Origin: a virus
Length of the DNA: 26,340 nucleotides
Virus record (IMG/VR): IMGVR_UViG_3300033571_010663
Span: 1-26,340 of that record
Reading direction: 5' to 3' (one strand)
Positions within the stretch are counted from its first letter, which is position 1; every line of letters begins with the position of its first letter. Below are positions 9,786 through 26,321 of this stretch, in pieces. Below the pieces are notes generated by a model that was not told the DNA's origin, searched no databases, and saw only the letters and a program-made list of their open reading frames with translations. Position numbers and translations under genes: made by a program.

Positions 9786-9814
9786 TTTGAGAAAGTAGGA
9801 AGAGGAAGGGAGTT

Positions 9815-9834
9815 GGGGCAGGTAAGTCTGCCCC
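9815..9834 (-). other. Post-stop hairpin GGGGCAG/CTGCCCC
   Basis: A perfect 7-bp stem with a six-base loop (ACTTAC on the minus strand) starts 14 bases after the stop of the 218-aa gene. No T tract follows, only pyrimidine-rich sequence. It is the better copy of a pair, the other being at 9455-9475. Confidence 0.65.
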
Positions 9835-9847
9835 GGTTAAGTATAAG

Positions 9848-10504
9848 TTACCTAGCTAAGTTACGACCGGCTGCAATGGCTAGGTTCGCCACTTGACTAA
9901 ACATTGTGTGGCAACTGTGGGTTGGGATTGTAACACTAGTCGAGATCATGCCGTTCTTCACTTCCAATGGTAGGTTCAATCTTGTAGCTACGTTGTCTAT
10001 CATTGTCTTCCAAGTTTCCTTATGCTGAAGGTTAAAGTATAGTGCCATGGCGCATAAGTCTACCATTGACAGTCTGTTGTTAGCCCTGCTAAGTGTGGCA
10101 GCAATTGCTATGATAAGCTGATACTTAGCATCTTCAGTCTTTTTGTTTTCCGCTTTCATCTTCGCCGCTGTCTTCTCATCATAACTTGATGCACCGCGCA
10201 CCTTACCTTCCTTAGAGGGTTGTTGTTTGGGTTTGGCCAGTACGGGCAGGTGCAATACGACCTTTCCTGCGGTGTGCTTAAAGCTGCCAGGGCAGTCTTG
10301 CCATCCTGCCGCCATCATTACGACCTGATCAGACTCAGGAAGGCCAGCGACCCATGCGGACGGGGCCACGGGGCCATCCTTAGGGCGTGCCATCCTGCTG
10401 CCGCTGCTAGGGCTTGCTGTGGCCTCTTCCATTGCCATCCTTAGCAAGTCTTCTAAGGAAGGGTTGCTGTTGTTGCCGTTGTTGTTGCCGTTGTTGTTGG
10501 CCAT
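9848..10504 (-). CDS. Asn/Gly-rich N-terminus protein of unknown function (218 aa)
   Basis: The protein opens with an Asn-Gly repeat (MANNNGNNNGNNSNP) made by repeated TTGTTGCCG-type triplets on the plus strand, then a helix PSLEDLLRMAMEEA. A middle part has a WQDCPGSFKHTAGKVVLHLP stretch that looks like a beta hairpin; a Lys-rich linker follows, then a helical C-terminal domain (about residues 125-218). I cannot name a family. It is the first gene left of the repeat-rich region and may belong to the replication or packaging region. Leader CCACAACTTTAGGA before the ATG supplies an AGGA site. Confidence 0.62.
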   Translation of the reverse strand: MANNNGNNNGNNSNPSLEDLLRMAMEEATASPSSGSRMARPKDGPVAPSAWVAGLPESDQVVMMAAGWQDCPGSFKHTAGKVVLHLPVLAKPKQQPSKEGKVRGASSYDEKTAAKMKAENKKTEDAKYQLIIAIAATLSRANNRLSMVDLCAMALYFNLQHKETWKTMIDNVATRLNLPLEVKNGMISTSVTIPTHSCHTMFSQVANLAIAAGRNLAR

Positions 10505-10698: not shown

Positions 10699-10990
10699 CA
10701 GCTTATACAAACTAAGTTGTTCAGCAACATTTAACGATTGCATTAGTTTAACTATATCAGCCAACTTGCTAAGTAACATTTAGCAATCTCTTTCTTTTAA
10801 CTATATCAACTAAGTCCTTCGGTAACATTTAGTAAGTTGCTTGTGTTAACTATATCAGTCAACTCGTTAAGTAACATTTATATCAACTAAGTTGCTAAGT
10901 AACATTTAGTAAGTTGCTTGTGTTAACTATATCGGCCAAGTCCTTAAGTAACATTCAAGGATTACCATTGATATAGTTTAACTAAGTCGC
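10699..10990. repeat. Iteron-like tandem repeat, period 49 bp
   Basis: The sequence TTAACTATATC recurs at 10748, 10797 and 10846, exactly 49 bases apart, and again at 10923 after a unit shortened by internal deletion. Each unit also carries CAACTTGCTAAGTAACATTTAG or a close variant (quoted here in part: AAGTAACATTTAG). A less similar first copy starts near 10699, and an inverted piece TGATATAGTTTAAC lies at 10968-10981. The region is AT-rich and non-coding on both strands. Such arrays next to a possible initiator gene are typical of replication origins, but partition or packaging sites look alike. Origin function is an inference. Confidence 0.7.
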
Positions 10991-11024
10991 TCGACTGTAA
11001 CTAACACTTTAAGGTGTAAACAGG

Positions 11025-11178
11025 CGCACGAAGTAAGTCTAAAATGTAAGTTTTACTACAGTAAGACTAAGCTAAACAGTGGTGGTAACTAAGTGCAAAG
11101 CATAGGTAAGTACAGCGTGCAAGTAAGTGTAACATGTAAGTAAGTATGGCATGTAAGTAAGTACAAATGCTAACTAAG
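11025..11178. repeat. GTAAGTAAGT repeat tract
   Basis: GTAAGT and its doubled form recur many times (for example CATGTAAGTAAGTA twice, about 17 bases apart near 11134 and 11151). The same GTAAGT core is scattered through 8.76-11.8 kb. The tract is non-coding; frames crossing it only produce low-complexity peptides. Confidence 0.65.
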
Positions 11179-11355
11179 TATGAATGCAATGAATGTCTTG
11201 AATGAATGTAAGTGTGTGGCATGAATGAGTGCAATGAATGAATGCGGTTTATGAATGCAGCAAATGAATGCAACGAATGAATACGGTGAATGAATGTTAT
11301 GAATGAATGAATGCAGTGAATGAATGTTGAATGTGAATGCTATGAATGAATGCTA
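11179..11355. repeat. GAATGAAT short tandem repeat field
   Basis: About 175 bases consist mostly of the tetranucleotide unit GAAT arranged as GAATGAATG blocks separated by three to six variable bases (such as CAGT, CGGT, TTAT). It reaches the stop codon of the winged-helix-like gene, and another short block lies just before that gene's start (11763-11775). The pattern suggests slippage expansion, or bound sites with roughly one to two turns of spacing. Confidence 0.75.
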
Positions 11356-11757
11356 ACTTTCAATGCCCAGCTTAGCCTTGCCTTCATTCCATACTTTAAC
11401 CTTAAGCGCCCTTCTTTTAAGATTGCCAGGATTAACAAGAAACGGTGAAACTATCAGCCCGCTTCCGTCTGTTGACTTATACTTTTCTACGCCTCTTATC
11501 TTGAATGTTATCTTCTTAACTAAGTCAAGCTCCTTGAACTTATGAATGGATGCTGCAACTTTACTGTATGGTTCATCTAATGTTTCTGCCAGGAAGCCTA
11601 GCGAGTATTTAATGTAAATCCTGTCTTGTGAAAGTCTAATTAGGTACCCAAGCAACATAAGATCGTATGGCGACAAACCATGTTGTTTTCTTTTTACGAT
11701 AAGCTGTCTAAGCTTATCTTCGCTTGGACGTAGTTTTGCGTTGAATGTTTCAATCAT
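11353..11757 (-). CDS. Winged-helix-like protein, possible replication initiator (134 aa)
   Basis: Residues 25-85 read as a winged helix: SPYDLMLLGYLIRLSQDRIYI, then LGFLAETLDEPYSKVAASIHKFKELDLV, then a short wing. A C-terminal segment SGLIVSPFLVNPGNLKRR is similar in pattern to the 'Y-x-[IV]-N-P-x-x-x-x-G' end of RepL-type plasmid and phage initiators. I rate that resemblance as weak. The gene reads towards the 49-bp iteron array, and both its ends are flanked by GAATGAAT repeats. It could also be a transcription regulator. ATG at 11755-11757; no clear Shine-Dalgarno site. Confidence 0.6.
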   Translation of the reverse strand: MIETFNAKLRPSEDKLRQLIVKRKQHGLSPYDLMLLGYLIRLSQDRIYIKYSLGFLAETLDEPYSKVAASIHKFKELDLVKKITFKIRGVEKYKSTDGSGLIVSPFLVNPGNLKRRALKVKVWNEGKAKLGIES

Positions 11758-11870: not shown

Positions 11871-12029
11871 ACCGCTGAATTCTATCACTGAACCATAGTA
11901 AAAGTGACCGCTGAGATCGACTGCGCTGGAAGGGATCTCAAGAACGCTTGAAAGGCTATTCTGTGAGAGCCTTCGTGGTCGCGCCAAACTAAATTGCAAT
12001 TGCCACTTCGCCTCGCGCCTTTCATTCAT
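11841..12029 (-). CDS. Doubtful small frame (62 aa)
   Basis: An ATG frame beginning MNERREAKWQLQFSLARPRR occupies most of the 340-base gap between the small terminase and the winged-helix gene. I see no family, no ribosome binding site and no overlap with neighbours. Its end overlaps the nested inverted repeat. The gap may equally be non-coding regulatory DNA. It is listed so that the gap is described. Confidence 0.25.
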   Translation of the reverse strand: MNERREAKWQLQFSLARPRRLSQNSLSSVLEIPSSAVDLSGHFYYGSVIEFSGRQGLSVSLT

Positions 12030-12098
12030 CGTAACGTATCAATGAACTTAAAGTACCTGCCAACTAAGCTACTCATCAATTCATAACTTGCAAGCAAA

Positions 12099-12740
12099 TT
12101 ACTCATCAACATCTGCTTCCTCTAATGCAACTAACAGTTGTTCAACGCCAAGTGCTCCAGACTGTAAACTCTTGCCCACTTCAGCTAACTTTGCAGCGCT
12201 GTTAAGTAGGCCTGGTATATCACGCATATCTACAACTCTTTGTGGGTCATCTATGTATGTATCTAATGTACGTTGTGATAGTGCTGCAAGTTTGGCAGCA
12301 TTGGCTGATAGACTTCTCCCAAGGAACTCCTGCTCCTGTCGGTAGTTCTCTAGTCTACGTTTATGCTCTGTCGCCCTGCTATCTTGTTCCAACTTAAGTT
12401 TCTCAGCAAGCATATCTATATCGTAGTCTGCAGCTCTTTGTTCCCAGTAGTTACGTTTAGCTATTTTGCGGACTGAATTATCTGTTAAATTATAGATGGT
12501 CGATATATATGATGTTGATCTACCCAAACCCGACTTTAAGTAAAATTTAAATATTTCATATTCTTTTTGATTTTCAGAGGCAGCACCTCCGTTCCTAATC
12601 AAGTATGATTTATCAGCGGAGGATCTATTTAAGATGGCGTCGTAGTCTGGCGCGACAACAGAGTCTAAATGTTGCAAGGAATAACTATCTTCAGAGTCCG
12701 TATCTAAATCAAATTCGTTTTCGGTAACTTCGTTGATCAA
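12099..12740 (-). CDS. terS: Probable small terminase subunit (213 aa)
   Basis: Small terminase binds the packaging site and regulates the large subunit. After an acidic disordered N-terminus (NEFDLDTDSEDSYS), residues about 60-100 match the usual small terminase helix-turn-helix pattern: EIFKFYLKSGLGRSTSYIST, then NLTDNSVRKIAKRNYWEQR and AADYD. A long coiled coil follows (LAEKLKLEQDSRATEHKRRL), then helices ending DIPGLLNSAAKLAEVGKSL, as in oligomerising small terminases. The longest frame begins at TTG 12738-12740, just after a terminator; no ATG fits. It is unusual that 3.4 kb separates it from the large subunit. Confidence 0.7.
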   Translation of the reverse strand: MINEVTENEFDLDTDSEDSYSLQHLDSVVAPDYDAILNRSSADKSYLIRNGGAASENQKEYEIFKFYLKSGLGRSTSYISTIYNLTDNSVRKIAKRNYWEQRAADYDIDMLAEKLKLEQDSRATEHKRRLENYRQEQEFLGRSLSANAAKLAALSQRTLDTYIDDPQRVVDMRDIPGLLNSAAKLAEVGKSLQSGALGVEQLLVALEEADVDE

Positions 12741-14359: not shown

Positions 14360-14388
14360 TGAAAAAAGAAAGTTGTGGTTTTAACTAA

Positions 14389-14417
14389 CAGCAGGAAAGT
14401 TGTTACACCTCCCGCTG
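14389..14417 (-). ncRNA. 5' leader hairpin of the 14359 cassette
   Basis: Directly after the expected transcription start, CAGCGGGAGGT pairs with ACTTTCCTGCTG around a six-base loop (GTAACA), with one bulged T and a few G-T pairs. It is one of a family of hairpins at the same place in the cassettes. Confidence 0.65.
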
Positions 14418-14426
14418 CATACATAC

Positions 14427-14455
14427 ATTATACACCATTTACAGTGGTATGTCAA
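14427..14455 (-). promoter_or_regulatory. Cassette promoter with operator-like dyad (for 14359)
   Basis: Minus strand: -35 TTGACA (14450-14455), 17-bp spacer, -10 TATAAT (14427-14432), a perfect sigma70/SigA consensus. The spacer holds ACCA-N7-TGGT. The upstream bases are CTTTGAC, as in the other cassettes. Confidence 0.9.
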
Positions 14456-14484
14456 GTCAAAGTCTGATTGATTTCAAACTTAAC

Positions 14485-14967
14485 TTACTGCAGGTCATCG
14501 TAACTGGCCAGCTTATCAAACAGGAAAGTTGTTTTTCCGCCTGCTCGATAAAGAATCCGTGGCGCATGATGTAAGCTTCCTAAACAAACTACATTCTTAA
14601 AGTCAATCTCATTATGCTTGTTTACAAAGCACATTGAAGTACAAGAGAACAGCGTCTTAAGTTGATCGTAGAACTCAACCGCATAATCATGCACACTGAA
14701 AAACTCAAACTCATCGCCAACAAAAAGTGATCGGTTGTCTTTAATGCACTTCCTAATAAGCTCTTCAGTTAAGGAAACTGAATCTACAAAGTTGTACTCG
14801 TTCAAACAGTTGTAGCCTTCCAGTTCAATGAAAGGAAGAACTTTATCTTTCGGCGCCAGAAAAAGAATACGTTGGGTCTTGGATCTTTGTAAGTGTTCCT
14901 TTGCGCCTTTCAGTCTACGTTCAACTTCAGCCAAACTAAAATGTTCTGTCGTTGGGATCTTTGCCAT
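14485..14967 (-). CDS. Unknown protein (160 aa)
   Basis: The protein begins MAKIPTTEHFSLAEVERRLK and continues with strands such as QRILFLAPKD and FVGDEFEFFSVHDYAVEFYD that suggest an alpha/beta fold, with CFVNKHNEIDF and VVCLGSLHHAPRI later. I cannot assign a family. AAGGA nine bases before the ATG is a clear ribosome binding site. It stands alone between the terminator at 15098-15132 and the next cassette promoter, with a weaker promoter candidate at 15006-15034. Confidence 0.7.
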   Translation of the reverse strand: MAKIPTTEHFSLAEVERRLKGAKEHLQRSKTQRILFLAPKDKVLPFIELEGYNCLNEYNFVDSVSLTEELIRKCIKDNRSLFVGDEFEFFSVHDYAVEFYDQLKTLFSCTSMCFVNKHNEIDFKNVVCLGSLHHAPRILYRAGGKTTFLFDKLASYDDLQ

Positions 14968-15005
14968 CGGAGTTCCTTTATGAAAAGTAACTGTGAAAGT
15001 GCATG

Positions 15006-15034
15006 AATCTAACCTGAATCGCCGCTTTCTTCAA
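15006..15034 (-). promoter_or_regulatory. Possible weak promoter without the dyad
   Basis: TTGAAG (15029-15034), 17 bases, TAGATT (15006-15011) on the minus strand lie after the 15098-15132 terminator and before the 160-aa gene, where a promoter is needed. The match is partial and there is no operator dyad. Confidence 0.3.
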
Positions 15035-15097
15035 CGGCTCCAAGAATCGCCCTGAAGGTGCCTCAACCGTCTCCCGCGCCTATCCCTAGCCAAGCAC

Positions 15098-15132
15098 AAA
15101 GAAAGCCCCTTCCAGGAGCAACTGGAGGGGGC
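15098..15132 (-). terminator. Intrinsic terminator inside the small-gene region
   Basis: The stem GCCCCCTCCAG/CTGGAAGGGGC (one mismatch) closes the loop TTGCTC and is followed by TTTCTTTG on the minus strand. It lies 22 bases after the stop of the 71-aa gene and is the only clear intrinsic terminator within the cassette field. Confidence 0.85.
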
Positions 15133-15153
15133 TGGTGAATCTCTGGGGGCAAG

Positions 15154-15369
15154 CTAGAGGACGCTATCTGGTTTGATAAGCCTGAAGTCTTCGATCCCGT
15201 AGTAAGCGTTTGTACTTTTACTAGCAGACCGAAGAAATTTTATCTCGTTATCTGCGCCATGTCTTGACTTAAACCACTTGTGATTCCATCTGCCGTTGCA
15301 TTTAACTGCAACGCAGAAAGAAGCATCTTTTTCAATCTGTCGCCCTGAGGTGAGAGTAAAGATTTTCAT
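15154..15369 (-). CDS. Unknown small basic protein (71 aa)
   Basis: The ATG at 15367-15369 gives MKIFTLTSGRQIEKDASFCV and later NGRWNHKWFKSRHGAD, ending AYYGIEDFRLIKPDSVL. The protein appears beta-rich with aromatic residues. Longer frames enter the end of the preceding gene and are rejected. It is the last gene before the terminator at 15098-15132. No family recognised. Confidence 0.65.
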   Translation of the reverse strand: MKIFTLTSGRQIEKDASFCVAVKCNGRWNHKWFKSRHGADNEIKFLRSASKSTNAYYGIEDFRLIKPDSVL

Positions 15370-15406
15370 GGTCTTGGTGAAGGTTTTCGTTTGTTCTGTA
15401 AGTGCT

Positions 15407-15619
15407 TCAGCGAATCCTTGTAACCCTGAGAGTTGACTTGCCCATGCCAGAGCGAAAATCAATCCACGCCCACTCATTAACTTCAAGTGCGTCAACGGTG
15501 GCTCTATCTACGCAATGCTGAACAAAAATTGCATTGCCTCGGCTAACTACGCCGTAGCGTTCTACGTCGTAGAGTTTAACAATGTCGTCGTGGGAAATTT
15601 TTGTAAGTGTTGCGGTCAT
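15407..15619 (-). CDS. Unknown small protein (70 aa)
   Basis: The start ATG overlaps the previous TGA as ATGA (15616-15619), so translation is probably coupled. The protein MTATLTKISHDDIVKLYDVE continues with VVSRGNAIFVQHCVDRATVD and ends RSGMGKSTLRVTRIR. The last part looks a little like a P-loop (GMGKST) but is at the extreme C-terminus and lacks the fold, so it is not an ATPase. No family recognised. Confidence 0.65.
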   Translation of the reverse strand: MTATLTKISHDDIVKLYDVERYGVVSRGNAIFVQHCVDRATVDALEVNEWAWIDFRSGMGKSTLRVTRIR

Positions 15620-15822
15620 TTGTTGGGATTGCAAGTGTGCTGAGTGACGGAAACTTGAGTGCAGTTGCCCTCAATCTCCATCAGGGCTGCATCTATGTCG
15701 TAGATGCTTTGGTGATACGTACCTTTCGCGTAAACGTCGGGAAACTTTGACTGAAGGCTGATAAGCTGTGCCCTGTAGTCAATCAGAGCAAGTCTGATAG
15801 TTGTTGAAGAAAGAATTGCCAT
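15616..15822 (-). CDS. Unknown small helical protein (68 aa)
   Basis: The protein is mostly helical: SSTTIRLALIDYRAQLISLQ, then YHQSIYDIDAALMEIEGNC. It is the second gene of the cassette with the 16265-16293 promoter. The leader CAACCACAAACTTTTCTGAC before the ATG is one of the repeated leaders without a Shine-Dalgarno site seen in this region. Confidence 0.65.
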   Translation of the reverse strand: MAILSSTTIRLALIDYRAQLISLQSKFPDVYAKGTYHQSIYDIDAALMEIEGNCTQVSVTQHTCNPNK

Positions 15823-15846
15823 GTCAGAAAAGTTTGTGGTTGATAA

Positions 15847-16182
15847 TTAAACGTAAACCGCGCAGCTAACTGCGGTAAACTCAATAGTTAGCTTGTAACC
15901 GAAAGAAGAGTCTTTACACTTTTCGCATATGGCATTAAAGCCACCGCTGCCACTTACGGCTTTATCAATGCGATCCATCCAGGAAATGGAACTGTTAAAG
16001 AGAACGTGAATCTGTATTTTCATTTCGTCAATCGTTGGACGACGAAACTCATTGCTGGAATGAATCATCCATTTCCAGTCAAGTACCTCCATGACTTTGG
16101 CAACTTTATCAAAGTCAAACTTTTCAATAGCGTCATCTACCGCCATGTAAGCGCGGCCCAGTGAAGGAGTAGAAGTTTCCAT
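15847..16182 (-). CDS. Conserved phage orphan with FDFDKVxKVMExLDWKW motif (111 aa)
   Basis: The motif AIEKFDFDKVAKVMEVLDWKW followed by PTIDEMKIQIHVLF (quoted in part) and then GSGGFNAICEK and a strand-rich end LTIEFTAVSCAVYV is one I recognise from many phage genomes ('W-x-W ... P-T-x-x-E-L-x-x-x-A-x-x-L ... S-G-G-F'). No function is established. It opens its cassette; the leader ACAAAATGGAAAC over the ATG is nearly the same as at 19664 and 9785. Confidence 0.75.
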   Translation of the reverse strand: METSTPSLGRAYMAVDDAIEKFDFDKVAKVMEVLDWKWMIHSSNEFRRPTIDEMKIQIHVLFNSSISWMDRIDKAVSGSGGFNAICEKCKDSSFGYKLTIEFTAVSCAVYV

Positions 16183-16225
16183 TTTGTAAAACTGTGGGGT
16201 GAAAGATTAAATGTGAAACAAAGTC

Positions 16226-16257
16226 TGCGAAGTAAAGTTGTTACACCTCCCGCTGCA
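16226..16257 (-). ncRNA. 5' leader hairpin of the 16182 cassette (chimeric)
   Basis: The left arm TGCAGCGGGAGGT is identical to that at 14389-14417, but the right arm ACTTTACTTCGCA is like the other cassettes. Ten of thirteen positions still pair. The mismatches suggest recombination between leaders. Confidence 0.5.
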
Positions 16258-16264
16258 TACATAC

Positions 16265-16293
16265 ATTATACACCATTTTTAGTGGTGTGTCAA
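16265..16293 (-). promoter_or_regulatory. Cassette promoter with operator-like dyad (for 16182)
   Basis: TTGACA (16288-16293), 17 bp, TATAAT (16265-16270) on the minus strand. ACACCA-N7-TGGTGT is a perfect 6-bp dyad spanning from the last base of the -35 to the first base of the -10. The TGA stop of the preceding gene (16290-16292) lies inside the -35. Confidence 0.92.
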
Positions 16294-16550
16294 GTGAAAG
16301 AACGACCTCCTTTGTACTTGTTTTCCTGAATAAGAAGTTGCTTAGCAGCAGACTTTGCCATAGAAAGCAACTCTGACTGAGTAACCATCTTCTTACCGTT
16401 GCGCCTAAGTAAAGCGTAGATGTTTCCAGTCAAGGAATCCCATTGTTGAGTGTCAGTGTCAACAAAGTTTTCGTGATCCCTTGACTTTATAGCGTGTTTG
16501 TAAGCGACAGAGCCGCGAACAATTTCAATAACTTGGTCGTTAAGGGTCAT
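16290..16550 (-). CDS. Unknown small protein (86 aa)
   Basis: The protein MTLNDQVIEIVRGSVAYKHA is followed by a polar middle and a helix TQSELLSMAKSAAKQLLIQ, with a basic end. It is the second and last gene of the cassette starting at 17134-17162. Its stop codon is embedded in the next promoter's -35. No family recognised. The leader has no Shine-Dalgarno site. Confidence 0.65.
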   Translation of the reverse strand: MTLNDQVIEIVRGSVAYKHAIKSRDHENFVDTDTQQWDSLTGNIYALLRRNGKKMVTQSELLSMAKSAAKQLLIQENKYKGGRSFT

Positions 16551-16579
16551 TTGTTGTAAATAAAACTGTAAACCGTGAA

Positions 16580-17062
16580 CTATCGGGTAAATTCCCGAAT
16601 CTGAGACTTGAGAGCACTAACCTTGGCCTCTAGGCACTTAATCTCTTCTCTTGTCTTGGTGATCTCTTCTACAGTGTAATCTGTACGACCAGGCTCCGAT
16701 TCTCGCCACTCTCCAGACAAGAGAACGCCATCTACGATTGAGCAGACATAAAATTCTCTTTTGACGTAGCTGCAACTGTACTCACCTGATTGGTAAGTCT
16801 TATCCAAAGTAGCATACACTGTGCGTTCGTAACTCCAGTCGATAACGAATCTGAACTTGTTTTCTTGCAATTTATCTTGGAGAGGAAGAAGAAGCTCTTT
16901 GAGTTTCTTGGTTGCGCTCCTGTATGGAGTCACATTGACAATCTTTGTGCCAACCAGCGGCAACAGTAACTGTTGAATCTCTGCCTGAATTTCATTGGCA
17001 GTCTTGTTGACTAAGTTGCGTGTTGCAACTTCTTTGGCGAAAAGTGAATCCGAAGTAAACAT
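16580..17062 (-). CDS. Unknown protein with C-terminal coiled coil (160 aa)
   Basis: An N-terminal helical part (VNKTANEIQAEIQQLLLPLV) is followed by beta-rich sequence (NKFRFVIDWSYERTVYATLD) and a C-terminal coiled coil (EITKTREEIKCLEAKVSALK). I cannot name a family. It is the first gene of its cassette, 72 bases after the -10. The leader has TCACAAACAAACATTC before the ATG and no strong ribosome binding site. Confidence 0.68.
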   Translation of the reverse strand: MFTSDSLFAKEVATRNLVNKTANEIQAEIQQLLLPLVGTKIVNVTPYRSATKKLKELLLPLQDKLQENKFRFVIDWSYERTVYATLDKTYQSGEYSCSYVKREFYVCSIVDGVLLSGEWRESEPGRTDYTVEEITKTREEIKCLEAKVSALKSQIREFTR

Positions 17063-17095
17063 GACAGGAATGTTTGTTTGTGAGTAAAGAAAGTC

Positions 17096-17126
17096 TGCGA
17101 GAGAAAGTTGCTAGTCCTTCCCCCGC
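17096..17126 (-). ncRNA. 5' leader hairpin of the 17062 cassette
   Basis: TGCGGGGGAAGG pairs over 12 positions with CTTTCTCTCGCA (several G-T pairs) around the loop ACTAGCA or similar. Compared with the other copies the sequence differs in both arms while pairing is kept. Confidence 0.7.
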
Positions 17127-17133
17127 ATGAGTT

Positions 17134-17162
17134 AATTATACCACATATTCAGTGGTACGTCA
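17134..17162 (-). promoter_or_regulatory. Cassette promoter with operator-like dyad (for 17062)
   Basis: TTGACG (17157-17162), 17 bp, TATAAT (17134-17139) on the minus strand, with the dyad TACCAC-N7-GTGGTA in spacer and -10 edge. It is the only full copy with a changed -35 (G for A in the sixth base). Confidence 0.88.
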
Positions 17163-17178
17163 AGTGAAAGAATGGATG

Positions 17179-17700
17179 CTATTTATGCAAGCCATCCCAC
17201 CACTTACTTGAATTGGCGACCTGTTTAAGCATTCTGTTGCAGAAAATACTTACCTGGCGCTTGCTTTCGTATGTCATTGGATATTGATCAAAGTTATCCT
17301 CTCCGTAACTGCCAGCAACAGCAATATACCCAGATGCCCTTTCGATTGGATTGTTAGAGCAAAGCTTGTCGATAAGCTCTTCTCTTTTCATGCCAAAATA
17401 GTTAGCAACTGAATCAAGGGATTTGCCATCTCCAAACCATGCCGGTAGGCGTGGATGGTAAACACTATCGCCAACCGCAAATATCTCGGATTCGTGGGAA
17501 AAGATTCTGTGGCATCGCTCAAGTCCAATATCATGCCGAACCCATTTGTCCTTGCCGTCCCTATTTTCAATCTCAACAACTATCAAACATGGATCATAAA
17601 TACCTCTTCGATCAATGCAAAGAAACTTGCCACCATGTTCAACTGGATCGGCATCACCAAGATTGGCGATACAGTGAAAACTAGGCTGATAAGTGCTCAT
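17179..17700 (-). CDS. Conserved orphan, 'IANLGDxxPxExGG' type (173 aa)
   Basis: The protein starts MSTYQPSFHCIANLGDADPV followed by EHGGKFLCIDRRGIYDP, a pattern I associate with a small orphan family. A central SVYHPRLPAWFGDG and a helix VANYFGMKREELIDKLCSNN follow, then FDQYPMTYESKRQVSIFCNR. It is the last gene before the 17134-17162 promoter. Function unknown. The ATG at 17698-17700 has no Shine-Dalgarno site; the leader has CACCACAGAGATTCACA. Confidence 0.68.
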   Translation of the reverse strand: MSTYQPSFHCIANLGDADPVEHGGKFLCIDRRGIYDPCLIVVEIENRDGKDKWVRHDIGLERCHRIFSHESEIFAVGDSVYHPRLPAWFGDGKSLDSVANYFGMKREELIDKLCSNNPIERASGYIAVAGSYGEDNFDQYPMTYESKRQVSIFCNRMLKQVANSSKWWDGLHK

Positions 17701-17738
17701 TGTGAATCTCTGTGGTGAAATGAATTGAAGTGAACTGA

Positions 17739-18308
17739 TCAGAACAGTAGGCCGTCTTCGTTGAAGTCGTAATCATTGGCGCGAATGGACTCAATGACCT
17801 GTTCGCGGGAAGTTTGATAGTCGTACTCCCTGCTAAGAATTGAAAGATAATCCTCAAGCAAAGCACGTTTGTAATTTAACTCTACCTCCTGAGCTTCTTC
17901 GGTATACTTAAACTCTGCCAGCCAATCTTTCGGCTTCCAGTGATCGCAACCACAGTCATCCTCGGAATTGGCTAATTCCCTTTTCTTCCAGTCCTTGAAC
18001 TCCTGTATGTATTCCGCCAGGTACTGTTTGGCCGTCTTGAAAGTATCGCAATGCTTGCCATGGTTACTCCTAATCGCTTTGCAGGAATCAAGTAGATACT
18101 CTTTTAGCTCACCTTTGATTAAGTTGCGACGACCAAAATCAAACTCTGTAATCTCCAGACCAACCAGCTCCGCATCTTCGTAGGTACACTCCCACCAATC
18201 GTGATCGACGTTAAGATCCCAGTGATCGTTAAGTGCTTTTTCTTGCGCTTTTTCTGAAAGCTCATCAAACTTGTAAAGCGTGTAAGTGACTGTTTTTGTT
18301 GTAGGCAT
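17739..18308 (-). CDS. Conserved phage orphan with YKFDELSEKAQEKA motif (189 aa)
   Basis: The N-terminus TYTLYKFDELSEKAQEKALN followed by DWWECTYEDAELVGLEI is a very common phage pattern (sometimes labelled, without evidence, as an antitoxin N-terminus). The C-terminus (LEDYLSILSREYDYQTSREQ, then VIESIRANDYDFNEDG) also matches the family. A Cys/His cluster DDCGCDHW sits in the middle. Function is unknown. GGAGA lies seven bases before the ATG, one of the few clear ribosome binding sites here. Confidence 0.78.
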   Translation of the reverse strand: MPTTKTVTYTLYKFDELSEKAQEKALNDHWDLNVDHDWWECTYEDAELVGLEITEFDFGRRNLIKGELKEYLLDSCKAIRSNHGKHCDTFKTAKQYLAEYIQEFKDWKKRELANSEDDCGCDHWKPKDWLAEFKYTEEAQEVELNYKRALLEDYLSILSREYDYQTSREQVIESIRANDYDFNEDGLLF

Positions 18309-18347
18309 GGTAAATCTCCGGTTTGTGGTTGAAGCTAGTGATTGAAA

Positions 18348-18698
18348 CTAAACAGTAGGGCAGGGCTTACCTTCCCAATAATCGGAAAAAAGTGAAACAA
18401 CGTCATCAACCCTATCCATTAAGGAATCAGATTCTGACCCTATGTCAGCAACTAACTCTTCCGGTTCATTGCCAAGAACAACGAATAGGGTAGCCGTAAC
18501 ACTACCGTCGCTAACGACAACATGAGACTCGTCAACTGAAGTAATTACTTCAGCAACAAACAATCTCTGCCTAAGTATTGACAGTCTGTTGTCAACATGA
18601 AACCATTCGCAACCATCGTTTACCGCATGTAGTCTAAGTCCATCTTTTTGAAGATGGCTTAGCAGTGACATAACAGGTGGATTCCAGTCGTAAGCCAT
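18348..18698 (-). CDS. Conserved orphan with 'VVLGNEPEELVAD' motif (116 aa)
   Basis: Pattern: MSLLSHLQKDGLRLHAVNDG, then VDESHVVVSDGSVTATLFVV and LGNEPEELVADIGSESD, ending FSDYWEGKPCPTV. This combination of an early 'L-x-x-x-G-x-x-L-x-x-V-x-D-G', a 'V-L-G-N-x-P-x-E-[IL]-V-A-D' core and a 'W-x-x-K-P-C-P' end is a family I recognise from plasmids and phages, with unknown function. It lies third in the 19664 cassette. No Shine-Dalgarno site; leader AACTCACTCAAATCATC. Confidence 0.75.
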   Translation of the reverse strand: MAYDWNPPVMSLLSHLQKDGLRLHAVNDGCEWFHVDNRLSILRQRLFVAEVITSVDESHVVVSDGSVTATLFVVLGNEPEELVADIGSESDSLMDRVDDVVSLFSDYWEGKPCPTV

Positions 18699-18741
18699 GA
18701 TGATTTGAGTGAGTTTGAGTGAGTTTGGGTAAATTGATGGT

Positions 18742-19122
18742 TTAGAAGCTGACGCGAGACTCGTAAAAGTCTCCCCAGCTTGTTAATCTCCAGCGACTGT
18801 GAACGTGATCGAGGAGAATTGTCGTTGCATATGTGCAACCAGTATTCAGATAGGTTGCAACAATGTTTCCGTAAAAGCTATCAACGTATGTGTTTTTATC
18901 GTTGATATGCTCCACTCCGTAAGTACGGAGTAACTCATCCAATGCAGAAAGTTTAACCTCAAATTTATGTGGAGAATTATAGCAAGCCTTAACCCACTCG
19001 CAGGTTATTGGGAATCGGCGTGGATGAGAAAGTGGGTCAACCCTACCTTGCATAATTAGCAAAGCAAGGTTGGCCTCAAACAAACTGCAATCCATACAGT
19101 CTGAAATATCTTGCGCTTTCAT
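18742..19122 (-). CDS. Conserved orphan with 'GVE ... NTGxTYxxTxL ... SWGDxxE' motif (126 aa)
   Basis: The C-terminal half, LDELLRTYGVEHIND then VATYLNTGCTYATTILLDHV then WRLTSWGDFYES, fits a widespread small family found in phages and plasmids, usually seen as a stand-alone 60-70 aa protein. Here about 60 residues precede it (MKAQDISDCMDCSLFEANLA), so this version is N-terminally extended. Its ATG overlaps the previous TGA (ATGA) and has AGAGG nine bases before it. Function unknown. Confidence 0.75.
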   Translation of the reverse strand: MKAQDISDCMDCSLFEANLALLIMQGRVDPLSHPRRFPITCEWVKACYNSPHKFEVKLSALDELLRTYGVEHINDKNTYVDSFYGNIVATYLNTGCTYATTILLDHVHSRWRLTSWGDFYESRVSF

Positions 19123-19664
19123 TCTGTTACCTCTGAATCATCGGAAACTCTGAAGCACTTGTAAGGCATGGCACCTTTATCAAACCAGTCTGGCCCCAAG
19201 CAGTAAGTCTTGATACTGCCAGGAGTAAGTAGGTAGCCAGCGCCAGGAGCACAAGGGCTACAGTATGCGCAAAGTGTATAGAACTTTGAGTCGGTAACAA
19301 AAATGTCTCCATCTGAATGAACATCGAATGTTACTCCCATCTCTCCCCCCTCTTCGTAATGGTATCTTGTGCAATCACCAGTATCTTGATGGTCAGTGTC
19401 TAAGTTATCAACAATCTCTTTGGCTATCTCCTTCGCATCAAAATTCGTGGAGTAATCTTCTAGCACTGACTTAACAGCATGAGCCAAGGAAGAAAGAAGT
19501 TCCTCCCTTGCATTTTCGTAGTCTACATCTACGCCATTTGCTTGAATTTCACTCCAAGCAAACTCGCCAAGTCTGTTGCTATGAATAACACCGTACCGAA
19601 TTCCGGTATCAGTGTTAATGTTTGTCTTGCCAAGTCCGTAGTCAATGCCAGAGTAAGTTTCCAT
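19119..19664 (-). CDS. Conserved orphan with CSPCAPGAGYL motif (181 aa)
   Basis: The start is ATG 19662-19664 (METYSGIDYGLGKTNINTDT, then GIRYGVI); a TTG upstream only adds leader sequence. The C-terminal region has YTLCAYCSPCAPGAGYLLTP with Cys132, Cys135 and Cys138, then TYCLGPDWFDKGAMPYKCFR. This arrangement (N-terminal 'G-x-x-x-T-N-I-x-x-x-T-G-I-R-Y-G-V' and 'C-S-P-C-x-P-x-A-G') is a family I know from phages and plasmids; the Cys may bind metal. Function unknown. It is the first gene of its cassette. Confidence 0.8.
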   Translation of the reverse strand: METYSGIDYGLGKTNINTDTGIRYGVIHSNRLGEFAWSEIQANGVDVDYENAREELLSSLAHAVKSVLEDYSTNFDAKEIAKEIVDNLDTDHQDTGDCTRYHYEEGGEMGVTFDVHSDGDIFVTDSKFYTLCAYCSPCAPGAGYLLTPGSIKTYCLGPDWFDKGAMPYKCFRVSDDSEVTE

Positions 19665-19701
19665 TTTGTGAAAGTTGTGAAAGAAAGTTGGGAACAAAGT
19701 C

Positions 19702-19733
19702 TGCGACGAAAAGTAGTTACACCTCTCGCCGCA
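19702..19733 (-). ncRNA. 5' leader hairpin of the 19664 cassette
   Basis: TGCGGCGAGAGGT pairs over all 13 positions with ACTTTTCGTCGCA (four G-T pairs) around the loop GTAACT. This is the most regular of the leader hairpins. Confidence 0.75.
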
Positions 19734-19740
19734 TGACAGT

Positions 19741-19769
19741 ATTATAGCACTTATTTAGTGCTATGTCAA
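19741..19769 (-). promoter_or_regulatory. Cassette promoter with perfect operator-like dyad (for 19664)
   Basis: TTGACA (19764-19769), 17 bp, TATAAT (19741-19746) on the minus strand. The dyad TAGCACT-AAATA-AGTGCTA has perfect 7-bp arms and fills the spacer. The arm core is GCACT rather than the CCACT of most other copies, changed on both sides. Confidence 0.93.
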
Positions 19770-19778
19770 GTGAAAGAA

Positions 19779-20306
19779 TCAGCGATCACCAGCAATGTAG
19801 CGATTAAAGTATTCAAGCGACTGTTCATCGTTATCTTCAAAGGAATCTTCTTGCAAGTCTTCGTCTTCATCTTCTTGATAAATCATGTTGTGCTCAATGT
19901 ATTCGGAGATAAGTGTAAATGGTACACCAATATCATTCAGCTCCGTCAGTGAAACATGTTCACCATTGTATCTTTTGACTATTACATCTCCAAACACTTC
20001 CACAGGCTCTTTAATTTCCGCCCACTTAACAACCTCGCTCGGTAAGTATCCCATGTAACCATTGATCAGCCTTCCGCCGCCATAAACTTCCTTAATTATA
20101 TAACCGCCATTTAATTTATCATTTAATCCGTTGCATTCCAGCGATTCTTCCCAAGTAATGTCTGGATGATCCTTAAGGTAAAGATCACACAAAACTCCCA
20201 AGCAACAGAAAGTGTTATCGCTGGGATTGTGCAAACACTCTTGCCCTTGCTTGTACTCCTCAGATCGAAGAGCCTTGATCCACTGTTGCTTAATTTGCTT
20301 GTTCAT
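19779..20306 (-). CDS. Conserved phage orphan, CCLGVLCDLY family, copy 2 (175 aa)
   Basis: MNKQIKQQWIKALRSEEYKQ then GQECLH, then FCCLGVLCDLYLKDH, then LPSEVVKWAEI and VSLTELNDIGVPFTLISEYI. This is the familiar phage family 'W-x-x-A-L-R-S-G-x-Y-x-Q-G ... F-C-C-L-G-V-L-C-D-L ... L-N-D-x-G-x-x-F-x-x-I-A'. A long acidic tail follows (EDEDEDLQEDSFEDNDEQ). It is the tandem paralogue of the gene at 20344-20751. The ATG at 20304-20306 is preceded by two AAACTTTC repeats and no Shine-Dalgarno site. Function unknown. Confidence 0.82.
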   Translation of the reverse strand: MNKQIKQQWIKALRSEEYKQGQECLHNPSDNTFCCLGVLCDLYLKDHPDITWEESLECNGLNDKLNGGYIIKEVYGGGRLINGYMGYLPSEVVKWAEIKEPVEVFGDVIVKRYNGEHVSLTELNDIGVPFTLISEYIEHNMIYQEDEDEDLQEDSFEDNDEQSLEYFNRYIAGDR

Positions 20307-20343
20307 TGTGAAAGTTTGAAAGTTTGATTGTTTTTGGATTAAA

Positions 20344-20751
20344 TTAAAGGCATTCTTCAATGATAGACGCAATCTCCGCAAAGGAAAGTCCGCCATCGTT
20401 TAAGTGTGTCAGTGCGGTCTTGTGACTGTTATCCATCACACTAATCAATCCATCGCCATAAGCGTCTCCGCAGGGATCTATGCCAGCCCATTTAGCAACA
20501 GACTTAGGCAGTATCTCCGTATTGTTATCAACAGAGTATTCACCTGGATTAACTCGTCTTTGTTCGTCGTCGTCGTCGCTATCGTCGTCGTCGTCGCTTA
20601 ACTTCCATTCCATACTGCAATCACTTAAGTAAAGATCACACAAAACTCCTAAACAGCAAAACTTTTCATCAAACCTAAGCCAATTCTGCCCTTGTTCGTA
20701 ATCTCCAGAACGGAGAGCCTCAACCCAAAGCTGTTTAATCTGTTTGTCCAT
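20344..20751 (-). CDS. Conserved phage orphan, CCLGVLCDLY family, copy 1 (135 aa)
   Basis: MDKQIKQLWVEALRSGDYEQ then GQNWLRFDEKFCCLGVLCDL, then LPKSVAKWAGIDPCG and LTHLNDGGLSFAEIASIIEE. It keeps the family consensus better than its tandem paralogue and is the usual length. An Asp run (DDDDDSDDDDE) comes from a GTC/TCG triplet repeat at 20564-20596 and is an insertion compared with the other copy. Function unknown. Leader GCAAACTTTCCA before the ATG, no Shine-Dalgarno site. Confidence 0.82.
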   Translation of the reverse strand: MDKQIKQLWVEALRSGDYEQGQNWLRFDEKFCCLGVLCDLYLSDCSMEWKLSDDDDDSDDDDEQRRVNPGEYSVDNNTEILPKSVAKWAGIDPCGDAYGDGLISVMDNSHKTALTHLNDGGLSFAEIASIIEECL

Positions 20752-20781
20752 TGGAAAGTTTGCAAGTGAGTAAGTTGGGAG

Positions 20782-20976
20782 TCAAGCAATCAAGTCGTAG
20801 CGACTAAGATCATCGGTGGGAATGACGTGCCATTTGTAGTCAGAATCGGCGCTAAAGAAAACTTCTTCAAGGTTTCGGACAGCAGCCCAAGCGGCTTCTT
20901 CAGTTGGCCATTCATTGTCTCCATGGCCCAGGAAATCGGTCCAACCGTATTCTGTTTTGAGGAGAATTGTGAACAT
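20782..20976 (-). CDS. Small conserved-type protein (64 aa)
   Basis: MFTILLKTEYGWTDFLGHGD, then WPTEEAAWAAVRNLEEVFFS, then KWHVIPTDDLSRYDLIA. The order strand, 'T-E-E-x-A-W-x-A-[VI]', helix, 'Y-x-V-[IV]-P-x-x-x-L' is seen in many very small phage proteins; no function is known. It is the first gene after the incomplete promoter at 21020-21048, so its transcription may depend on read-through from the 22860 cassette. Confidence 0.68.
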   Translation of the reverse strand: MFTILLKTEYGWTDFLGHGDNEWPTEEAAWAAVRNLEEVFFSADSDYKWHVIPTDDLSRYDLIA

Positions 20977-21001
20977 GAGAAACGCTGGTGTGGGATGGGT
21001 T

Positions 21002-21048
21002 GCCGGGATGAACTCCCGGCGGGCTGTCCAATTTTAGTGGTATGTCAA
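21002..21048 (-). promoter_or_regulatory. Degenerate cassette promoter with leader hairpin
   Basis: The minus strand has TTGACA (21043-21048) and the left half of the dyad (TACCACTAAAATTGG), but at the 17-bp position the hexamer is AGCCCG instead of TATAAT. A hairpin GCCGGGA-gttca-TCCCGGC (21002-21020) follows, at the place of the other leader hairpins. It looks like a cassette junction whose -10 was lost or replaced. Confidence 0.6.
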
Positions 21049-21053
21049 GTTAA

Positions 21054-21344
21054 TCAGCGACGATGAATTAAGCCCATAGGCACTGGATGCTTAATAATTG
21101 CTTTCGGAACCTCTGGAATCGGCAACTGATAAAATTCAGAAACCGTAACTGCCTGAATTGATTTAGCAGCGTGGCTGCCAAATCTAAAGTAAACCGCATA
21201 AGTTTCCTCGCCATTTGGCAAGCAACTCCAAGGCTCCCAGCCTAATTCATAACAGCCATGCTTGTGAAGTGTTTCACCTGAATCTCGACAGGCCCACAGG
21301 TACGACTCCTCTTCGATTGTAACAAATTTAAGATGAAGTGTCAT
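21054..21344 (-). CDS. Unknown protein (96 aa)
   Basis: The ATG shares its A with the preceding stop (TAATG) and has a perfect AGGAG site eight bases before it, which fixes the start. MTLHLKFVTIEEESYLWACR is followed by CYELGWEPWSCLP and YAVYFRFGSHAAKSIQAVTV, ending MGLIHRR. It looks like a small beta-rich fold with several Trp. It is the last gene of the 22860 cassette. No family recognised. Confidence 0.68.
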   Translation of the reverse strand: MTLHLKFVTIEEESYLWACRDSGETLHKHGCYELGWEPWSCLPNGEETYAVYFRFGSHAAKSIQAVTVSEFYQLPIPEVPKAIIKHPVPMGLIHRR

Positions 21345-21598
21345 TAATTTTCTCCTGAAAATGCAGAGTTTGCCCAAGTAAGAAGTGAAGTGTCAGAAGT
21401 AAACCCATAGCCTAGCCGACCAAAAGACTTTGGATGATAGACAATCCAAAGATAACTTGAACTGTAATGCGGCTGAAGTCTGCACTCTTTTGGATCAAGA
21501 GTTGCAATGTAATCTTTAACCTGTTGCGCTGTTGTAAAAATCATCAGTTTTTCCAGTTTTTTGGGTGTAACAAACGCAATGACTTTAGAAAAAGTCAT
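21344..21598 (-). CDS. Unknown protein (84 aa)
   Basis: From ATG 21596-21598 it reads MTFSKVIAFVTPKKLEKLMI then FTTAQQVKDYIATLDPKECR and YLWIVYHPKSFGRLGYGFTS. The start overlaps the end of the preceding gene by 14 bases; an internal ATG at 21542-21544 (MIFTTAQQ) would leave a 40-base gap and is a real alternative. Its stop overlaps the next start (TAATG). No family recognised. Confidence 0.62.
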   Translation of the reverse strand: MTFSKVIAFVTPKKLEKLMIFTTAQQVKDYIATLDPKECRLQPHYSSSYLWIVYHPKSFGRLGYGFTSDTSLLTWANSAFSGEN

Positions 21599-22241
21599 CA
21601 CGCAGGAAGCATCTGTAACTGTTAAACTCTACATGTAAAAATGCAGTACGGCCCTCGTCTCCATCTACGATTAACTTATTGCAGCAACCTGCAATCTCAT
21701 CAAAAAGATGATTTGCGATTGAGTGACCATCTAAACCCCTGAAACGTCTTTTGTAAGCCTGGTAACCTTTGCAGATCCAAGCAGTAGCGGAATTTACGTC
21801 ATAATCGAGATCCGCTTCGACTTCTGATTCTGCCTCTCTAATTCCAGAGGCAACAGCTATTCTGATTTCCTGCTCAATCTCTTTATCTTTTAGATGACTG
21901 CTAGCTTCTTTTTCGCAGAAATATCCTTGACCATGAAAACAATTCACCGCAAGTGTTGACACTTCACTTGCAACATCATCGCTGCTTATCCTTCTCCACC
22001 TAGTTCCATGATAGGCTCCACAATGAGCCCAACCATGCTCAACCCTTCCAGCCATAATCCCTCCCAAAGCTAATAGCTCATCGGTCACGGAACAAGGATG
22101 AGGTTTTACCGTGTGCTCAATAATATCATGCGCTGCAACCAATCCATTAAATGGCTCAAAGTAAGGTCTTCCAGTATCTACTATTACGCCCAGTCCTCCA
22201 TACTCTTCGTGCTCTTTAATCTGTAACTTGTAAATTTTCAT
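21585..22241 (-). CDS. Conserved orphan with AHDIIEH motif (218 aa)
   Basis: The ATG 22239-22241 (MKIYKLQIKEHEEYGGLGVI) lies four bases after the previous stop. Residues 28-43 (FEPFNGLVAAHDIIEH) and then TDELLALGGIMAGRVEHGW are a pattern I have met in several phage and plasmid orphans, where an 'A-H-D-[IL]-x-E-H' and an 'E-L-x-A-L-G-G' segment are conserved. The His/Asp/Glu set suggests a metal-dependent enzyme, but no reaction is known. The C-terminal half is acidic and then helical (ICKGYQAYKRRFRGLDGH). Among the largest proteins of the small-gene field. Confidence 0.72.
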   Translation of the reverse strand: MKIYKLQIKEHEEYGGLGVIVDTGRPYFEPFNGLVAAHDIIEHTVKPHPCSVTDELLALGGIMAGRVEHGWAHCGAYHGTRWRRISSDDVASEVSTLAVNCFHGQGYFCEKEASSHLKDKEIEQEIRIAVASGIREAESEVEADLDYDVNSATAWICKGYQAYKRRFRGLDGHSIANHLFDEIAGCCNKLIVDGDEGRTAFLHVEFNSYRCFLRDDFF

Positions 22242-22245
22242 GGTG

Positions 22246-22440
22246 TTAGTGATGAATGAAACGAACATTTTGCCTTGATATGCCGTAAACGTATTGCAGC
22301 ATGTCAAGAGCTTCCACTGATTGAGTCCTTGTCCAAGTCTCTGCCCTGATGTATTCAACACAGTGACCGATGCGAGGTAAAGTAAATGTAAGCCTAAACC
22401 TCATGGAACCAGTAAACTCATGGCGAACTTTAACTTTCAT
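22246..22440 (-). CDS. Unknown small protein (64 aa)
   Basis: The ATG overlaps the previous TGA (ATGA at 22437-22440), so I choose it over a start nine codons upstream. MKVKVRHEFTGSMRFRLTFT is a beta-rich start; HCVEYIRAETWTRTQSVEAL and DMLQYVYGI follow. This strand-strand-helix pattern with a basic surface could bind nucleic acid, but that is speculation. No family recognised. Confidence 0.65.
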   Translation of the reverse strand: MKVKVRHEFTGSMRFRLTFTLPRIGHCVEYIRAETWTRTQSVEALDMLQYVYGISRQNVRFIHH

Positions 22441-22730
22441 GTTGTGGTAAGCGGTTTTTTGTGACACTTGCCATAGCGAGTAAGAAGTCTGTCTAGTTTC
22501 TCAAGAAACTTCTCTGTTCTTCGCTTAGCAACAATGGGTGAATTTGTCTCTAAATCCAATACGACAATACACATGTGATTGATCCATACCTCTTGAACGT
22601 ACTTAAGCCTCAGGATCATGCCTTCAACTGTGATAGAGTCAGCATAAATTGCACCTGAATCAACTAAGGCTTGATGAAAGTTAATAGATACGTTGTAACC
22701 GTATCCGTAATCATATCTGGTTTTCTTCAT
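22437..22730 (-). CDS. Unknown protein (97 aa)
   Basis: From ATG 22728-22730 the protein reads MKKTRYDYGYGYNVSINFHQ, then ADSITVEGMILRLKYVQEVW, then CIVVLDLETNSPI and a basic C-terminal helix (RRTEKFLEKLDRLLTRYGK). A longer frame upstream is the out-of-frame shadow of the 49-aa gene and is rejected. It overlaps that gene by 20 bases. No family recognised. Confidence 0.66.
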   Translation of the reverse strand: MKKTRYDYGYGYNVSINFHQALVDSGAIYADSITVEGMILRLKYVQEVWINHMCIVVLDLETNSPIVAKRRTEKFLEKLDRLLTRYGKCHKKPLTTT

Positions 22731-22860
22731 CACTACCATCGCATTCATCTTCGTAAACATTAAACGGAAACTCTTCTTCTGTCGGATCTGCCATGCAATC
22801 CGAATCAAGCCACGGAAACAAGTGTGCTTCCATAGCCATTTCGTCCCAATCAATGGTCAT
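22711..22860 (-). CDS. Short acidic protein (49 aa)
   Basis: The frame runs from ATG 22858-22860 to TGA 22711-22713 and reads MTIDWDEMAMEAHLFPWLDS, then DPTEEEFPFNVYED, then GSDEENQI. It is strongly acidic. GGAG lies nine bases before the ATG and the frame begins right after a cassette promoter and leader, where a first gene is expected. Small acidic first genes are common in phage early operons, sometimes mimicking DNA or binding host proteins, but nothing specific is shown here. Confidence 0.72.
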   Translation of the reverse strand: MTIDWDEMAMEAHLFPWLDSDCMADPTEEEFPFNVYEDECDGSDEENQI

Positions 22861-22901
22861 TAAGTAACTCCGTTTTTAATTTGTGTTTGTGGTAAAAGAA
22901 C

Positions 22902-22931
22902 TGCGAGAGAGTGATTACTCTCTCTCCCGCA
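22902..22931 (-). ncRNA. 5' leader hairpin of the 22860 cassette
   Basis: TGCGGGAGAG pairs with CTCTCTCGCA over ten positions at the base of the stem, with further GAGAG/CTCTC pairing possible in a shifted register. It lies directly after the promoter, as in the other cassettes, with a different sequence. Confidence 0.7.
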
Positions 22932-22938: not shown

Positions 22939-22967
22939 ATTATAGCACCTATTCAATGCTATGTCAA
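22939..22967 (-). promoter_or_regulatory. Cassette promoter with operator-like dyad (for 22860)
   Basis: TTGACA (22962-22967), 17 bp, TATAAT (22939-22944) on the minus strand. The dyad TAGCATT-N5-GGTGCTA is imperfect. The TGA stop of the preceding gene (22964-22966) is contained in the -35. Confidence 0.91.
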
Positions 22968-24899: not shown

Positions 24900-24915
24900 G
24901 CCAGTCTTTGCTGGC
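24900..24915 (-). ncRNA. 5' leader hairpin of the 24874 cassette
   Basis: GCCAG-caaaga-CTGGC lies right after the promoter and is followed by TTTTGC. The sequence is unrelated to the longer TGCGG-type hairpins but the position is the same. Confidence 0.55.
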
Positions 24916-24923: not shown

Positions 24924-24952
24924 ATTATACACCACTCTTAGTGGTATGTCAA
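24924..24952 (-). promoter_or_regulatory. Cassette promoter with operator-like dyad (for 24874)
   Basis: TTGACA (24947-24952), 17 bp, TATAAT (24924-24929) on the minus strand, with the dyad ACCACT-AAG-AGTGGT in the spacer (perfect 6-bp arms). The stop of the preceding gene is two bases upstream of the -35. Confidence 0.93.
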
Positions 24953-25731: not shown

Positions 25732-25760
25732 ATTATAGCAGCTTAGCAATGGTATGTCAA
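25732..25760 (-). promoter_or_regulatory. Cassette promoter, weaker dyad (for 25709)
   Basis: TTGACA (25755-25760), 17 bp, TATAAT (25732-25737) on the minus strand. The spacer TACCATTGCTAAGCTGC keeps the left half-site ACCATT but the right half is not its complement. It may be the least repressed copy. Confidence 0.9.
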
Positions 25761-25775: not shown

Positions 25776-26321
25776 CTAGAAAACTGTTACATCAAGATCA
25801 GGGTATATTGCTTTATTCATAAGCCTTGGTAATATCTTTCTGACTTCCGCCATTGGAAGAAATGGTTCCGTCCTAACAAAGCCACCTTTTGAATACGGAC
25901 ATACCCACTTTGCAATACTGTTGCTGACGTAAATCAATGGAAACTCGGAAACATTTCCAATCCATATACAGCCCTCGTCAATTGGTTGATGCGATCTAAA
26001 CCTTGTGCGAACAAAAGGAAAGAATGCACCTTCTGGCGCAGTAAATGTTTCGTAGTCAATATACTTCCCTCCCCACGCCATTTCACTAAGCTCAAAATAT
26101 CTCTGAGTAAATAGATAAACCTTGTCAGCTTCTGGAATAGCGTTCTCTTCGGCGTTGAATAAGCTTGAATAAATATCCTTGATTCGCAATGTGTAGCTCT
26201 TGCTATTTGTAAGCGCTTCCTTGCAAAGCGCAAATCTTCTTTTAGTTTGCGTCTCAGTAAACAGAAGGTTTCCACTTTCCGAATACTTGTAATGCAATTT
26301 CTTCGGCTGTCTTGGCCTCAT
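25776..26321 (-). CDS. Unknown protein (181 aa)
   Basis: The ATG at 26319-26321 has GGAGGT seven bases before it, the best ribosome binding site of the region. The protein is basic at the start (MRPRQPKKLHYKYSESGNLL), then TLRIKDIYSSLFNAEE, then aromatic-rich sequence (WGGKYIDYETFTAPEGAFFP) and PLIYVSNSIAKWVCPYSKGG, ending with a helix AEVRKILPRLMNKAIYP. I do not recognise a family. It ends 16 bases before the first cassette promoter of the window, and its own promoter is outside the window. Confidence 0.7.
   Translation of the reverse strand: MRPRQPKKLHYKYSESGNLLFTETQTKRRFALCKEALTNSKSYTLRIKDIYSSLFNAEENAIPEADKVYLFTQRYFELSEMAWGGKYIDYETFTAPEGAFFPFVRTRFRSHQPIDEGCIWIGNVSEFPLIYVSNSIAKWVCPYSKGGFVRTEPFLPMAEVRKILPRLMNKAIYPDLDVTVF

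Follow-up and report, generated by a model that had tools for sequence, protein, structure and literature searches.

Nearly all early messenger RNAs (mRNAs) of a group of uncultured phages are predicted to begin with a hairpin that is under selection as an RNA structure. The stretch of DNA analysed here, referred to as the window, is the whole IMG/VR virus record IMGVR_UViG_3300033571_010663 (26,340 nucleotides, nt), whose early genes lie on the minus strand in cassettes behind sigma70 promoters. Seven minus-strand promoters of the window match 11 or 12 of the 12 sigma70 consensus positions with a 17-nt spacer, and in its relatives nearly every promoter of this quality begins its RNA with a hairpin. 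We read these hairpins, with a probability of roughly 45%, as 5'-terminal caps that would guard phage early mRNAs against 5'-dependent decay.

The relatives (L098, L100, L102 and L125-L140) were found by a promoter pattern scan and by searching for members of the early protein family encoded at 25776-26321, and together with the window they provide 91 distinct leaders after duplicate removal. Transcription starts are predicted throughout from the distance to the -10 box; a purine (A or G) occupies the seventh position after the -10 in every one of the 91 leaders, so the +1 position is well predictable. Folding energies of -12 kcal/mol or below are seen in 79% of the 81 leaders that lie outside the first cassette, as compared with 7% of random 42-mers, and 53% reach -16 kcal/mol or below as compared with 1.4%. 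A strong hairpin is present in 73 of the 81, with no unpaired 5' nucleotide between the predicted +1 and the stem in 62 of them and one or two in the remaining 11. The preliminary description of these hairpins had named starts located downstream of the stems as speaking against its reading; as far as prediction goes this is not the case, the predicted +1 being within two nucleotides of the stem in 73 of 73. The flush position also holds for stems of unrelated sequence. Stem length ranges from 7 to 23 pairs and stem sequence varies widely, and in two relatives (L138:16370 and L137:13042) the basal stem is kept with a long extra apical stem inserted. Along the leaders, the mean folding energy dips sharply at +1 (to about -14), and the approximately 40 nt after the stem are unusually unstructured (-1 to -2 versus a background of -4.6) and poor in G. 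Most leaders are devoid of a Shine-Dalgarno sequence. The first cassette departs from this pattern. Its promoter (25732..25760, minus strand) is followed by a start codon near +1, and in the orthologs of this cassette the start codon is found about 16-20 nt from +1 and a stable hairpin in 0 of 12 leaders. The hairpin at 25712 in the window has 5 base pairs (bp), and the 12 orthologous leaders are all unstable (-1.1 to -6.0 kcal/mol). A scan of the window with Rfam returned no family at the gathering score.

Evidence that the pairing itself is maintained comes from exchanging the arms of the hairpins. Leaders were cut at a fixed point and the 5' arm of each was joined to the 3' arms of other leaders. 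In 18 non-redundant leaders, unselected for folding, the energy is -11.8 kcal/mol with native and -8.0 with swapped arms, and 0 of 10,000 permutations came down to the native level. Applied to a control stretch that begins 50 nt downstream of the -10, the same test gave no difference between native and swapped. For the six copies of the window alone, about 0.4-0.6% of permutations equal the native pairing, and in nine out of nine ortholog clusters tested, for which only leaders with a hairpin had been taken, native arms do better than swapped ones. Since native arms outpair swapped ones despite variable sequence and length, the hairpin is selected as an RNA structure. Close orthologs retain 106 of 130 changed pairs compared with 61% when the same substitutions are placed randomly, a count that we take as descriptive, since the comparisons are partly overlapping and in a few cases involve paralogs. 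Clear double changes are, for example, C-G to U-A (L126:15220 versus L127:14572) and G-C to A-U (L133:18854 versus L136:19760). Purine-rich and pyrimidine-rich arms keep many pairs by chance, and compensations seen within the window only are therefore weak evidence; it is the larger leader set, beyond the window, that settles the matter of compensatory change. The claim that both arms change while pairing is kept was thus borne out once relatives were added, by the kind of check that had been proposed for it, on more copies from related phages and here in the form of a permutation test. MAFFT/RNAalifold misaligned the 3' arms of hairpins of unequal length and returned no consensus pairs, hence the reliance on arm swaps and ortholog comparison; the covariation evidence consists of permutations and ortholog changes. 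In 70 of the 81 leaders the sense strand gives a more stable fold than the complementary strand, and G.U pairs make up 18% of the counted pairs, indicating that the constraint acts on RNA. The same two properties led us to reject the hairpin as a DNA operator.

In the window, four stems lie directly behind promoters on the minus strand as had been described, and all four are among the top 0.1-0.5% most stable 36-mers of that strand. The most stable of these (19702..19733, 14 pairs, -19.5 kcal/mol) follows a promoter with a full 12/12 consensus match at 19741..19769 (predicted +1 at 19734) that carries a perfect 8-bp palindrome overlapping its spacer. The stem at 17096..17127 (12 pairs, -17.0 kcal/mol; ortholog L098:3831) lies behind an 11/12 promoter at 17135..17163 (+1 at 17128), the stem at 22902..22931 (10 pairs plus 2 apical, -17.9 kcal/mol; same gene in L098:9239) behind a 12/12 promoter at 22939..22967 (+1 at 22932), and the stem at 14388..14418 (12 pairs with one bulge, -16.5 kcal/mol), which L100:9586 keeps with a changed sequence, behind the 12/12 promoter TTGACA-17-TATAAT at 14427..14455 (+1 at 14420). 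The copy at 16226, located behind another 12/12 promoter (16265..16293, +1 at 16258), does not hold up as a paired leader hairpin: the broken stem at 16227..16253 has an energy of -6.9 kcal/mol, no better than that of shuffled sequences (p = 0.80). Its 5' arm and loop are letter-identical to those of the 14389 copy and its 3' arm differs, which looks like recombination between leader copies, and its orthologs L098:2956 (-16.4 kcal/mol) and L100:10958 pair well. Equally placed hairpins had also been proposed at 24900, 25712 and 21002, and this can be retained for the first of the three. Behind the 12/12 promoter at 24924..24952 (+1 at 24917), a weak 5-bp hairpin, GCCAG/CTGGC, is found at 24900..24915, for which relatives have an 8-bp stem or a terminator-like stem and L102:5835 has the compensated form AAGCCCAC/GTGGGCTT. 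The hairpin at 25712, as seen above, is not conserved. The site at 21002..21048 (minus strand) is a lost promoter, with a -35 (TTGACA at 21048) without a -10, followed by a stem at 21020-21002 that is real but straddles the would-be start and so is not an equally placed leader. The relative L098:7622 has an intact promoter and leader at this place, and the window cassette seems, from this comparison, to have lost its promoter when the gene at 20976-20782 came in.

The host of this virus group is likely a cyanobacterium, judging from protein matches, and the relatives of the window virus are siphophages of cyanobacteria. The terminase, portal and head proteins of the window match phage families, and the nearest relatives of its large terminase are those of the Synechococcus phages S-H1 and KBS-S-2A, at 39%. 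In a close relative (L098/L099) the sequence goes on to genes for replication, recombination and a sigma factor, the best matches of which are in the cyanophages S-CBS1, S-CBS3 and KBS-S-2A. L099 encodes a sigma70-like factor at 8972-9883 and, at 11942-12286, a protein of 114 aa that matches the C-terminal domain of RNA polymerase alpha. None of these three cultured cyanophages has a promoter of the kind described here at 11-12/12. The two early proteins that were compared had no matches among 50,697 phage records, and the group therefore seems to be without a cultured member in those records. Short degenerate repeats (CATTCATTC; GTTACTTAGCAACTTAGTTGATATA-like) fill a long region of the window, 10700-11380, that shows no clear genes.

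How might such a 5' end act? RNA polymerase would start at the purine seven nucleotides behind the -10, and the first 26-40 nt of the RNA would fold into a stem-loop with no more than two unpaired 5' bases. An end of this kind would be a poor substrate for pyrophosphate removal by RppH-like enzymes, for 5' sensing by RNase E or for RNase J, and the open, G-poor leader behind the stem would stay accessible to ribosomes, which would mostly initiate without a Shine-Dalgarno sequence. Promoters, stem position, structure, co-evolution of the arms, strand asymmetry and the absence from one short-leader cassette were computed here, and the flush position, free sequence, variable length, open leader and absence near a start codon fit a 5' cap; the exact start and the protective effect we infer. 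Protection from 5'-dependent decay had been the first suggestion of the preliminary description, and the geometry, with stems flush with the predicted +1, agrees with it. To act, Bacillus RppH needs a 5' end with two or more unpaired nucleotides, and E. coli mRNA can be stabilised by 5'-terminal stem-loops (PMC3997798). RNase E rises during cyanophage infection in one phage-host pair, in which antisense RNA shields phage transcripts (PMC9692554). Three observations weigh against a cap. Synechocystis RNase E and RNase J cleave the psbA2 leader in vitro whatever its 5' phosphorylation state (PMC7283877), and 5'-dependent decay may therefore matter less in cyanobacteria. The 16226 stem has been lost in the window itself, and the enrichment of T right behind the stem, described below, is not needed by a pure cap.

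This U-rich stretch, which had not been seen in the earlier description, gives the cap its main rival, an intrinsic terminator or attenuator close to the promoter, which is to be taken seriously in the relatives even if it is a doubtful explanation of the hairpins as a whole. It would end read-through from the upstream cassette and/or stop a cassette's own transcripts near +40 unless overridden by a phage factor. The frequency of T is 0.71-0.78 at positions 2, 4, 5 and 6 behind the stem and about 0.3 further on, and in other clades 32 of 69 leaders have a d'Aubenton-Carafa score > 0 and so count as terminator-grade, as compared with about 1% of background stretches. None of the 91 promoters has a terminator-grade element in the 110 nt upstream, indicating that no other terminator separates the cassettes, and orthologs of cassette 24952 have a classical terminator at +1 (score +12 to +32). 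In L126:11403, L133:11389, L136:12297 and L139:6610, which are such orthologs, the terminator GACCGC...GCGGTCTTTTTT has its start at the predicted +1 or slightly ahead of it. In the window's clade, however, only one of 22 leaders is terminator-grade, the window's own copies falling short of the threshold, whereas two ordinary terminators of the window, at 12809 and 15119, score +27 and +14. Moreover, blocking read-through does not require a stem flush with +1, and a terminator for that purpose would be safer if placed ahead of the promoter. Attenuation or read-through termination may thus be a real function in relatives and may have been lost or weakened in the window's clade, and cap and terminator functions could coexist.

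The hairpin could also be the binding site of a phage or host protein, or an RNA that, like put of phage HK022, modifies RNA polymerase to let it pass terminators, which we consider unlikely. A U-A-N-Y loop is found in 37 of 50 long hairpins, including all of those in the window's clade, with recurrent apical purines, and the two ordinary terminators of the window lie downstream. The shared loop may, however, reflect common descent, and several flush hairpins lack it. The wide variation in stem sequence and length, together with the long extra apical stems of two relatives, argues against one specific binding protein. The put RNA resembles the leaders in being an RNA structure transcribed right behind early phage promoters, but it consists of two stem-loops of conserved sequence that act in antitermination, and when the leaders were examined for these features a single stem was found, with no shared sequence and of variable length. 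The free variation of the stems in sequence and length, and the lack of terminator-grade elements within 110 nt upstream of all 91 promoters, leave the earlier suggestion of an antitermination site without positive support.

A leader serving several ends at once, in which the cap hairpin is combined with a micro-open reading frame (micro-ORF) in the window's clade and with an attenuator in other clades, is about as improbable; if true, one exchangeable hairpin would set the decay, termination and translation of each early cassette. For the micro-ORF as the sole purpose of the leader the odds are poorer still. Here, an AUG at +1 followed by four further codons and a stop in the loop would let ribosomes bind the 5' end as they do on leaderless mRNA and regulate or feed the downstream gene. 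An AUG stands at the predicted +1 in 37 of 81 leaders, among them those of the window at 14420, 16258, 17128, 19734 and 22932, where the frame stops after five codons in the loop, and in the window's clade 12 of 13 AUG frames stop at codon six in the loop (MRERE, MRREV, MRGKD, MQREV) by UAA or UAG. In leadered E. coli mRNAs, ribosomes bind to 5'-terminal AUGs, and some of these AUGs have an effect on the gene downstream (PMC4965119). Other clades, however, have AUA, GUA, GUC and others at this place, or the frame stays open; the leader copies are related, so that the stop may be inherited; and an AUG at +1 would be paired within the stem. A micro-ORF in the leader is therefore possible, but not probable. 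Least credible is the absence of any structural function, whereby a single ancestral leader, with one arm rich in purines and the other in pyrimidines, was distributed along with the cassettes and its arms pair fortuitously: such arms do keep 61% of pairs under random change, and copies do spread (the L100 leaders 10958 and 12120 are nearly identical), but this is disfavoured by the excess of very stable leaders over random 42-mers, by native arms beating swapped arms in every set, and by unrelated stems occupying the same place.

The promoters themselves have a further feature. At the window promoters 14455, 16293, 17163, 19769, 22967 and 24952 the spacer holds a palindrome (ATAsCAC...GTGsTAT), and in the window's clade the 17-nt spacers have 5.7 symmetric pairs compared with 4.0 in shuffled spacers (z 9.4). 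A spacer palindrome common to all relatives was considered and rejected, its significance being confined to the window's clade, where the palindrome is a candidate repressor operator. The lambda operator OR1 lies in PR at a comparable spacer position. In four Clostridia contigs (L117, L118, L120 and L122) a near-identical palindrome (TACCACTCAATGAGTGG and similar) sits in the spacer of consensus promoters that have no flush leader hairpins, indicating that palindrome and hairpin are separable. In L021:1075-1103 (IMGVR 3300022746_000027), on a phage contig that may be unrelated, a palindromic-spacer promoter is followed by a perfect 12-bp hairpin, GCATTGGAAGGG...CCCTTCCAATGC, at the start.

Hairpins at the start of an mRNA have precedents. 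The T7 gene 10 mRNA is likewise a phage mRNA that starts with a hairpin at +1, but it is made by the phage's own RNA polymerase, in contrast to the sigma70-type promoters used here. In ompA and papA (Emory, Bouvet and Belasco 1992; Bricker and Belasco 1999, as cited in PMC3997798), stabilising stem-loops also lie at the very 5' end, with few unpaired nucleotides and an open leader after them. The phage leaders agree with such elements in that the stem begins within two nucleotides of the predicted +1 and structure rather than sequence is kept; they differ in that ompA and papA are single genes, whereas here nearly all early cassettes carry the hairpin, with free sequence and mostly without Shine-Dalgarno, and in that stabilisation would here be a consequence deduced from structure. 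In the cyanophage P-SSP7, antisense RNA protects transcripts from RNase E, as cited in PMC9692554. A cap hairpin would serve the same need of sparing phage mRNA, by a hairpin in cis instead of a duplex in trans. What appears to be new is a phage group in which almost all early cassettes carry a 5' hairpin whose sequence can change freely. Protective 5'-terminal hairpins have so far been known mostly gene by gene, and a natural series of tens of them, mostly flush with the predicted start, could show what the RNA decay machinery of a (probably) cyanobacterial host reads. The hairpins of this phage group thereby suggest a cis counterpart to the antisense protection found in a cyanophage.

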